From Rhodospirillales bacterium (GTDB taxonomy: Bacteria > Pseudomonadota > Alphaproteobacteria > Rhodospirillales > Defluviicoccaceae), in contig JALOTH010000028.1 in NCBI GenBank assembly GCA_025458035.1, positions 1 through 40,103 of the forward strand: a stretch of DNA of 40,103 nucleotides, given 5' to 3'. This document shows, in pieces, positions 19,441 to 23,008 of the stretch. The notes beneath the pieces are model-generated. The model made no database searches and was not told where the DNA came from. It saw only the letters and a list, made by a program, of their open reading frames with translations. A program made the position numbers and the translations under genes. Each line of letters begins with the position of its first letter. Positions within the stretch are counted from its first letter, which is position 1.

Positions 19441-19527
19441 CGTAGCCCGTCATGGAGCGGAGCGGAATGCGGGGGATCCGTCGCGGCATCAAAACCTGGA
19501 TTTCGCTCACGCTCCATCCAGGCTACG
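19441..19527. repeat. intergenic inverted-repeat element (type 2)
   Basis: CGTAGCCCGTCATGGAGCGGAGCGGAAT ... CCTGGATTTCGCTCACGCTCCATCCAGGCTACG: imperfect inverted arms. Confidence 0.75.
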
Positions 19528-19730: not shown

Positions 19731-20351
19731 TTACGTCGTGGCCTCCAGAATCGCATCACAGAATAGGACGAAGCTGTGCGAGTTCGAGCGCTGCCGCTCG
19801 ACCAAGGCCCCCAGCGTCCGGCCCGCCTCTACCTTGCGCAAACCCGTTTCAAAGTAGCCGTGCCGTTTGAGCACGCGTTCAAACGCCTCCCAGGTTCCGC
19901 CTTTGATCGCATCTGGATCGAGGAAACCTCGTTTGCGCACGATGCCTTGCGGCACATTCGGGTACGCGGCGCATACCGCCTGCCAATCGCCAAAGTACCA
20001 GGACTCGAGTTCCTCGATCGCGATGCGGTTGACCAACTGCCAAGCGAGATGTTTGCTGTGCGCGCGACTGACGAGTCCTGACCGCTGGGCCGTCGCCTCC
20101 AGACGCCGCTTCAGGTCATGGCAGTCTTGATCGTCGCGATCGACCACGACAACGATCCGCCAGTCCTCAGGAAGCCACGTCGCGTAAGCCCTGAGGCGCG
20201 CCTCCAGTTTATCGAATAAGTCATCCCTGCCCTGAAACGGGTGGACTTCGAAGGTGCGCTCGTCGGTTAACAGGCGCGGCAAGAGACCACGAAGGAAGGC
20301 CTCCATGGATGGCTCCTCGACAAGCAGTTCAAGATGCGTGGCTGGGATCAT
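19731..20351 (-). CDS. DUF4276 family protein, TOPRIM-like (second gene of a two-gene ATPase system)
   Basis: 206 aa; [22 protein letters not shown] (conserved Glu) and [21 protein letters not shown] (DxD-like), [18 protein letters not shown] overlap with the upstream ATPase. Confidence 0.8.
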
Positions 20352-21559
20352 GAGCGGCCTGCGCGCGGCCGTGTCGGCGCACCCTGGTTAACCAGTGGGT
20401 CGCCCACCCCCAGTTGGCCTTCCATCCAAAGGTGGCCCAAGAGGGCGCCATGCTCAACGAACTCGCACACACCGGGAAGGTCAGCCGCGCGCTGCGTCTG
20501 GGTATAGCCCTGTTCGTCCCGCCAGAGCACACGTACTTCCTTCGGTTTCAGGGCGTTGAGAAAGAACGGGGAATGGGTCGTTACTAGAAGCTGCGTTCGC
20601 TCGATGGCCGCGCGGCATTCTTCGGCGAGTTCCGGTAGCAAGCGCGGGTGCAGGAAGTTCTCCGGCTCCTCAATTCCGATGAAGTGAGGCGGCGCTGGAT
20701 CGTAAAGGAGAACCAAATAGGCTAGGATCTTCAGCGTGCCGTCTGAGGCGAAGCGCGCGAGAACCGGATTACTGAAGGGCGCGTCCTTGATCTGCAGGAG
20801 CAGGCGCCCGTCTGGCATGGTATCCGCCAGAACCTTCTCAATACGTGGCACCCGGTGTCGCAAGACATCAAATATCTTGTTCAGATGGTCCTCGTGACTT
20901 TCAGCCAAGTACTGGATGACGTTGGCCAAGTTATCGCCGCTCTTTGTCAGCCGCTCCTGTGGTCCGGCCTCCGGCTGGCCACGCGCGCTGTCTGCCGAAA
21001 GATAGGAAACGTACCATCCCGTGATGAAGTCGCGCAGGGCCGCCACTCGCGGATGTTCCGCGAACTGGCCCAGTGCATTCACCGCCAGCAGGTCGGCACT
21101 CTTGAGTGGAGTGTCAACGCGCTTATCCTCGGCATCGGGCTGATCGCCGCTCACCGCCTTGCCTTCCCCCTCGCGGTAATCAAGAAAACGGAACGGTCTT
21201 CCGTGCGAGCCGCGCTTCCATTGCAACCACTCCTCGACGACCACAGGCGCGTTGTTGCGTTCGTCTACTGTCAGGTGATAGGTGATCAGCGGGTATTCGG
21301 GCTCGCGGTACTTGATCTCGATGAGCACCGGCCCGTCGCCGCCTCGGGTTTTGAGCTCCTTCGCCCGGCCGCGCTTGTCCCAGGCGCGACGCAGACCCAG
21401 TTCGAAGCACTCGGCCAGGAAGGCGAAAACGTCAAACACCGTGGATTTGCCGCTGCCGTTAGGCCCGAGCAATACGGTCAGTGGCGTTAGCTCCTTGAGT
21501 TCTACATCGCGCAAGGCGCGGAAGTTTCTAACCTTGAGATATTCAATACGTGGTGGCAT
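20348..21559 (-). CDS. AAA family ATPase (AAA_21/SMC-like ABC ATPase)
   Basis: 403 aa; [43 protein letters not shown] (Walker A), [39 protein letters not shown] (signature/Walker B), [14 protein letters not shown] (H-motif). Confidence 0.92.
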
Positions 21560-21822: not shown

Positions 21823-21998
21823 TGGGATTTCTCGTCAAGCGGCCAAGGTTGGCGGGTTGCGGCGGCGGCGGCGATCGGCCAGCCTTACCCGCGGCGGCCC
21901 ATCGCCGCGCGGTGATCGGGCGCTCCGACGCGGTACGGCCAGCGCGCGGCTGCCCCGGCGATGACGACAAATGATGACAGATGACGACACAATCGCCC
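21823..21998. repeat. direct repeat copy A (~176 bp)
   Basis: tgggatttctcgtcaagcggcc...ggcgatgacgacaaatgatgacagatgacgacacaatcgccc; highly similar to 22786..22961. Confidence 0.9.
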
Positions 21999-22034
21999 GG
22001 ACTGGAACATCTTGTGTCTGTTTTCAATGGGTTA

Positions 22035-22125
22035 GCGAGCGTAGCGAGCGTAGCGAAATCCGGGTTTACCTGCCGCGGAGGTTCCCGCATTCCGCTGCGC
22101 TTCATGCTGGATACAGGTTACCGTG
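22035..22125. repeat. diverged, inverted relative of the type 2 intergenic element
   Basis: The reverse complement contains GAAGCGCAGCGGAATGCGGGAACC...CCCGGATTTCGCTACGCTC, matching parts of 19441..19527. Confidence 0.5.
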
Positions 22126-22176: not shown

Positions 22177-22407
22177 TCATCGGTCTGTGGCCAGGAACTG
22201 CGCTACCGATACTCCCGCTTGCTTTAGGATGGCACGTAGAGTTCCCTGCGGTATGTCGCCGGGGTGGTTGGGGATCGTCGTATATCGCTTCGTTTCTGGG
22301 TTGTACCAGGTCTCATGACTGCCGGCCGCTTGCCGATCGAAGCGAAACCCAAGTTGTCTCAGCCGCCGAACGACATCGCGATAGCGATAGCCGGCAAGTG
22401 TCCCCAT
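22177..22407 (-). CDS. hicA: HicA family toxin (mRNA interferase, YcfA-like)
   Basis: 76 aa; YRDVVRRLRQLGFRFDRQAAGSHETWYNPETKRYTTIPNHPGDIPQGTLRAILKQAGVSVAQFL, with GSH and PNHPGDIPQGTLRAIL HicA motifs. Confidence 0.9.
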   Translation of the reverse strand: MGTLAGYRYRDVVRRLRQLGFRFDRQAAGSHETWYNPETKRYTTIPNHPGDIPQGTLRAILKQAGVSVAQFLATDR

Positions 22408-22673
22408 CAGTCGCTGACGACGAGGGGATAGTCGAACGCCTCGGCCGCTATCGGCGGCGCAGCAGTTGGTTCGCGCTCCGCCTGCGCTTCCAGCAGGCGC
22501 CGGGCCACATCACGGGCGATTTCGAGCGTCTCGGTGATGGTTCGACCTTGAGCGACCAGGCCTTGCACCTCGTCCGACGTTGCCAGGTAGACCCCTTCCG
22601 GCAGTTTCTCGACTCGAACGTTGACGATCCGCTCCATTGGGGCTGCCCGCTCCGAAGTTGTACGCACGCTCAT
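22407..22673 (-). CDS. hicB: HicB-like / DUF1902 antitoxin
   Basis: 88 aa; IVNVRVEKLPEGVYLATSDEVQGLVAQGRTITETLEIARDVARRLLEAQ; TGATG overlap with hicA; an alternative start is 22637. Confidence 0.82.
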   Translation of the reverse strand: MSVRTTSERAAPMERIVNVRVEKLPEGVYLATSDEVQGLVAQGRTITETLEIARDVARRLLEAQAEREPTAAPPIAAEAFDYPLVVSD

Positions 22674-22785: not shown

Positions 22786-22961
22786 TGGGATTTCTCGTCA
22801 AGCCGCCGGGGTTGGCGGGTTGCGGCGGCGGCGCCGATCGGCCAGCCTTACCCGTGGCGGCCCATCGCCGGGCGGTGATCGGGCGGCCCGTCGCGGCGCG
22901 GCCAGCGGGCGGCTGCCCCGGCGATGACGACAAATGATGACAGATGACGACACAATCGCCC
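22786..22961. repeat. direct repeat copy B (~176 bp)
   Basis: tgggatttctcgtcaagccgcc...ggcgatgacgacaaatgatgacagatgacgacacaatcgcc; pairs with 21823..21998. Confidence 0.9.
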
Positions 22962-23008
22962 AGCCCGGAAAATATTATGTTTTTTTTCAACGCGTTGTGC
23001 ATTCGACA

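Follow-up and report, generated by a model that had tools for sequence, protein, structure and literature searches.

Organization of the locus

The window, a stretch of 40,103 nt of DNA from a Rhodospirillales bacterium, carries two intact open reading frames that follow each other on the minus strand. The first gene of the pair (20348..21559) encodes an ATPase of 403 aa, and the second (19731..20351) a protein of 206 aa belonging to the DUF4276 family. As the preliminary description had reported, the two genes overlap by the 4 nt ATGA (20348..20351, minus strand). From this overlap, which recurs as a spacing of −4 in relatives, we infer that translation of the two genes is coupled. A scan for promoters and terminators gave results at chance level only, and tRNA and Rfam searches of the window returned no matches.

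The setting of the pair between tpiA and ggt, next to repeats and a toxin-antitoxin pair, was also found as described, the flanks being secG-tpiA and ggt. A dispersed low-copy repeat, detected by inverted-repeat and own-genome searches (inverted repeats I2/I3; five places in its own genome), lies to the left of the pair (19451..19514, minus strand), and the same repeat is found in the opposite orientation to its right (22040..22110, plus strand). Beside the pair, a HicA toxin gene and a HicB-like partner (22177-22673) are bracketed by the copies of a 211-nt direct repeat (21823-22033 and 22786-22996; 90% identical). HicA was recognized by Pfam (2.2e-21), and the DUF1902 match of its partner fell just under the cut-off. 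Since the 211-nt repeat, whole or in parts, has 22 matches in the genome, it constitutes a dispersed repeat family.

The pair is already known as the PADLOC candidate defence system HEC-01 (Hma-embedded candidate 01). The ATPase matched the HEC-01A model (PDLC04182) with 537 bits and the DUF4276 protein the HEC-01B model (PDLC04202) with 264 bits, both nearly over the full length and in adjacent genes; the layout has thus been catalogued before. According to a recent survey, HECs were identified by screening Hma systems for 'guilt-by-embedding', and several of the candidates, HEC-06 among them, were active (PMC12988326, citing doi 10.1101/2024.01.29.577857). No Hma system surrounds the pair in the window, where tpiA/secG and HicAB/ggt form the flanks; embedding in Hma is the route of discovery and not a sequence criterion. 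A literature search for the names DUF4276 and HEC-01 yielded nothing usable, and DUF4276 occurred under that name in no full text searched, even though the family is widespread.

The ATPase

Pfam assigned the 403-aa protein to AAA_21 (E 1.5e-31, 111 bits), with AAA_15 as a further match (66 bits). Its motifs comprise a Walker A GPNGSGKS (21443..21466), an ABC signature-like SDGT (20735..20746), a Walker B segment including FIGIEEPE (20654..20683), and an H-loop TTHSPFF (20561..20581), all on the minus strand. Judged over 56 relatives, the core residues of Walker A are invariant, as are S272, D273, G274, and T275 of the signature, E297, E298, P299, E300, and N301 of the Walker B segment, and T327, H329, S330, and P331 of the H-loop. 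The four motifs and the length given in the preliminary description are therefore correct, but its term 'SMC-like' is not the best one. With the AlphaFold model (pLDDT 83) as query, the best Foldseek matches among solved structures were PtuA, OLD, and Rad50 (E about 1e-12 to 1e-14), so that, on the predicted structure, the protein is better called an OLD/PtuA-type ABC ATPase. ATPases of this kind have often been misnamed AAA+ or Rad50/SMC (PMC12839542).

In 98.5% of comparisons the ATPase was better conserved than the DUF4276 protein (mean identity 72% versus 58.5%). Such conservation is not easily squared with a sensor that has to keep up with rapidly changing phage proteins, and the cue sensed by the ATPase may be a conserved one rather than a phage protein of that sort.

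The DUF4276 protein

For the 206-aa protein, Pfam reported DUF4276 (PF14103, E 3.2e-27) and no other family over the threshold. The AlphaFold model (pLDDT 93) has the element order b1-a1-b2-a2-b3-a3-b4, with strands at residues 6-11, 33-38, 64-71, and 106-111 alternating with helices. Conservation was assessed in a diverse alignment of 39 sequences. E12 (20316..20318, minus strand), which immediately follows strand 1 and would be the catalytic glutamate of TOPRIM motif 1, is conserved to 100%. At the end of strand 3, D71-R-D73 (20133..20141, minus strand) forms the candidate TOPRIM DxD, with D71 at 100% and D73 at 85%. After strand 4 follows E114-x-E116 (20004..20012, minus strand), with E116 at 100% and E114 at 87%; K173 is conserved to 90%. 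The conserved N-terminal glutamate and the acidic strand end noted earlier are hence borne out by the alignment, and the arrangement of a Glu after strand 1 and a DxD after strand 3 in an alternating alpha/beta fold is that of TOPRIM domains.

Profile comparison with hhalign linked the 39-sequence alignment to the OLD TOPRIM domain (P 1.2e-4, over the first motif only) and to RloB (P 1.5e-4). In the RloB comparison, the initial Glu aligned together with the region of the DxD and with that of the RloB FELW motif, which pairs with E114-x-E116. Reversed profiles gave P >=0.23 and the column-shuffled controls listed P >=0.4, and RloB against the OLD TOPRIM domain, as a positive control, gave P 3.4e-6. 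With a narrower alignment of 71 DUF4276 sequences, the OLD TOPRIM domain was matched at P 4e-4 and RloB without a sensible alignment. Among viral structures, the top Foldseek match to the DUF4276 model was RloB-like (E 4.3e-3, probability 0.99, TM 0.50).

Against the PDB, the same model retrieved nothing at E <= 0.001, only weak Rossmann-like matches, and our search for direct sequence relatives with a solved structure found none. Because of the missing PDB match, the TOPRIM assignment of the preliminary description rests on profile comparison and topology: element order, E12, D71xD73, and the alignments to OLD TOPRIM and RloB speak for it, and a significant solved-structure match in its favour was not obtained. 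On these grounds DUF4276 is probably a TOPRIM-like protein, which is supported and not proven, and the 206-aa protein a probable TOPRIM-like nuclease. The weak Rossmann-like matches would also suit a different Rossmann-like, metal-binding enzyme or an adaptor without nuclease activity. The invariance of E12, D71, and E116 and the conservation of D73 and K173 at TOPRIM-type positions argue against this, as does the profile match to OLD TOPRIM and RloB, and we regard a DUF4276 protein that is no nuclease as improbable. The link to RloB/OLD-type TOPRIM nucleases allows candidate catalytic residues to be named for the family.

Conservation of the gene pair

The ATPase gene lies upstream of the DUF4276 gene, in the same order, in each of the 90 loci that a search with the DUF4276 protein yielded, a recurrence far beyond chance. 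We also sampled 30 distant DUF4276 genes from a broader, profile-based set, most of them too divergent for the subfamily profile. An ATPase gene was situated immediately upstream of 29 of these (the window being one of the 29), and the sole case without it is at a contig end. The spacing between the two genes was −4 nt in 57 of 89 relatives and between −7 and +14 nt in 86 of 89. The ATPase and DUF4276 genes thus form a real coupled module whose pairing is near-obligate. The earlier description had proposed such a two-gene unit and had named missing co-occurrence of the two families in other genomes as grounds for rejecting its reading; the two families do co-occur, and these grounds do not apply.

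A few loci deviate from the common layout. In L031, one of the few with apparently broken coupling, frame calls place the two genes about 1.2 kb apart. In two Latescibacterota loci, the pair is directly preceded by the gene for a further AAA_21 ATPase, which falls into a different HEC-01A subgroup (L012:3333-4361, with 445 bits, and L030:2134-3156); these may be two HEC-01-type modules side by side.

Association with type I restriction genes

When the neighbouring genes in relatives were clustered, the most frequent families proved to be HsdR, HsdS, and HsdM. Type I restriction genes were located within about 6 kb of the pair in at least 32 of the 80 close relatives, 29 of the 32 with HsdR, and always on the strand of the pair. 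These counts are lower bounds, as the profiles were built here from the clustered neighbours and contig ends hide some neighbours; they refer to the closest 80 relatives only, in which MAG assemblies may be chimeric and shadow ORFs enter the neighbour list. For one restriction-linked locus that was checked, Pfam confirmed HsdR, HsdM, and HsdS. As a background, simple arithmetic with an assumed rate of even 5 hsdR genes per 4-Mb genome gives a hit for a 12-kb stretch in ~1.5% of cases.

The typical layout in the restriction-linked relatives is hsdM-hsdS-[ATPase-DUF4276]-hsdR. At 21 loci hsdS is upstream and hsdR downstream of the pair, and distances of <=150 nt from the pair were recorded for hsdS in 13 loci and for hsdR in 16. 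The hosts of the close relatives include Pseudomonadota, Cyanobacteriota, Planctomycetota, Deinococcota, and Armatimonadota, as well as archaea (Methanosarcinaceae). Among distant pairs, none of 20 had type I restriction genes nearby (close versus distant pairs, Fisher P 2.6e-4, with the relatedness of loci ignored), and the restriction context therefore appears peculiar to the close subfamily.

In L033, L040, L060, L061, and L079, genes that we take to be RhuM-like, a name given from the look of their sequence rather than from a database match, adjoin the pair or sit between the pair and hsdR. They are possibly a further insert in the same restriction operons.

Genomic context and origin of the window copy

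In the genome to which the window belongs (96% complete), HSDR_N, Methylase_S, and N6_Mtase had no match, while the controls did. Since the genome lacks any HsdR, HsdM, or HsdS domain, the window pair is an orphan of the restriction-linked subfamily. In the ATPase tree it falls within a group of 36 rows, 22 of them restriction-linked, with modest support (84/74). Possibly, the pair became detached from a former restriction operon; the tree leaves the direction of change undecided.

The pair is patchy within the same genus and family, and the pairs of two relatives (G002 and G007) are on other contigs and elsewhere in the ATPase tree. No conserved insertion site was detected: seven relatives keep pyrG-secG-tpiA and have neither the pair nor hicAB nor ggt there. 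On the contig of G007 that carries pyrG-secG-tpiA, a gene with an RloB-type match (L118, G007:C431:501-911) was noted near the equivalent of the window locus. The G+C content of the pair (~0.605) is below that of tpiA (0.705) and ggt (0.753), which suggests a foreign origin, and patchy occurrence together with low G+C content points to horizontal transfer. Neither the 50,697 phage records searched nor viral contigs contained a close relative.

Outside restriction operons we found no defence-island context; the neighbours are mostly housekeeping genes, as are tpiA and ggt in the window. This raises the question of an ATPase-nuclease pair that serves DNA repair, replication, or the cell cycle instead of defence. 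The high identity of the ATPase across phyla would suit such a role, and Cran1, an OLD-family ATPase of an archaeon, has a part in cell-cycle progression but apparently none in defence (PMC12796447). Patchiness within genus and family, with the copies of relatives at other loci and elsewhere in the tree, speaks against such a role, however, and so do the type I restriction genes beside the pair in 32 of 80 relatives; HEC-01, moreover, is listed as a defence candidate (for the HEC approach, see PMC12988326). We therefore consider a housekeeping role unlikely.

A second, divergent DUF4276-ATPase pair resides in the same genome beside fdhD/mobA/mobB (L171, G000:C6:4577-6089). As its ATPase gene is broken into two reading frames, this pair is either decayed or misassembled.

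The broken second pair shows that loss is tolerated, and HicAB next door together with the flanking repeats suggests a small genomic island. Along with the tight coupling of the two genes, these features would be in line with a toxin-antitoxin-like or selfish element, in which a DUF4276 toxin would be restrained by the ATPase and the unit would maintain itself without defending against phages. A purely selfish element would not be expected to be embedded in restriction operons, though, and in PARIS deletion of either gene is non-toxic and abolishes defence (PMC9122126). An element of this type seems quite unlikely to us.

Proposed function

In our judgement the two genes rather probably make up a HEC-01-type defence module with two components, namely an ATPase-gated TOPRIM nuclease that is often recruited into restriction operons and of which the window holds an orphan copy. 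Some points count against such a defence module: the DUF4276 model has no significant solved-structure match, the neighbours outside restriction operons are mostly housekeeping genes, and the ATPase is better conserved than its partner.

Under the proposed mechanism, the ATPase would dimerize on ATP, bind the DUF4276 protein, and keep it inactive. An invasion cue would alter the ATPase, by which the DUF4276 protein would be freed or activated. The activated protein would then cut DNA or RNA, possibly host RNA in the way AriB cuts tRNA, and the infection would fail. Most likely, by analogy with PARIS or RloAB, the ATPase both holds and licenses the TOPRIM nuclease. Within the window's subfamily the module seems to have been recruited often into type I restriction operons, at a place between hsdS and hsdR, where it would probably serve as a backup of restriction, for example against a phage that disables the latter. 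The orphan in the window would have to do its work with no type I restriction enzyme present. Both the anti-phage role of the pair and its link to restriction failure are what we infer from these parallels.

A more specific version of this proposal is that the DUF4276 subfamily guards type I restriction in the manner of RloAB and PARIS, residing in hsdMSR operons of bacteria and archaea and firing when restriction is blocked, with the window copy as an autonomous unit whose cue would involve neither HsdR, HsdM, nor HsdS. We hold this version to be rather doubtful. As an orphan without restriction genes, the window pair lends itself to a clean test of what ATPase-TOPRIM modules sense.

Comparison with known systems

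The preliminary description had named RloA/RloB, PARIS, and the OLD family as the nearest parallels, and these hold, given the profile and structure likeness to RloB and OLD TOPRIM and the separate ATPase and effector genes as in PARIS. With PARIS the pair has in common separate genes for an ABC ATPase and a TOPRIM-type effector, and the window ATPase, with its AAA_15/AAA_21 matches, agrees with the AriA (AAA_21) model, which is a generic feature. PARIS itself is defined by AriB as a DUF4435 protein (PMC9122126). Membership of the window pair in PARIS was rejected, as Pfam gave no DUF4435 (PF14491) and PADLOC no match to any AriB model at E up to 10. The cue for PARIS is an anti-restriction protein (PMC9122126). 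AriB cleaves tRNA as a two-metal TOPRIM nuclease, an activity absent from its E26A mutant (PMC12409363).

Members of the OLD family, including GajA of Gabija, likewise combine an ABC ATPase with a TOPRIM-type active site. OLD and GajA have the two domains in a single protein, whereas the window has two separate ORFs, and no UvrD-like helicase partner; OLD class 1 and class 2 were rejected on account of the separate ORFs. Septu and retron PtuAB resemble the pair through PtuA, which is among the best solved-structure matches of the window ATPase, but the partner there is an HNH nuclease and here DUF4276. The HEC class is named for embedding in Hma, whereas the close subfamily studied here often occurs within operons for type I restriction, with the window copy embedded in nothing.

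RloA/RloB, which is of the AbiL type, resembles the pair in its two slightly overlapping genes within an hsd locus, and DUF4276 resembles RloB by structure and profile. In Campylobacter jejuni, rloA and rloB overlap slightly and lie inside the hsd locus (PMC2928727). RloB (PF13707) and DUF4276 (PF14103) are nevertheless different Pfam families with a remote relation only; none of the 71 members of the DUF4276 alignment matched PF13707 at E up to 10. RloA/RloB belongs to a type I restriction locus and the window pair does not, although 32 of its 80 close relatives do. From the repeated layout hsdS-[ATPase-DUF4276]-hsdR it would seem that type I restriction enzymes have acquired ATPase-TOPRIM modules of different kinds as companions on more than one occasion.
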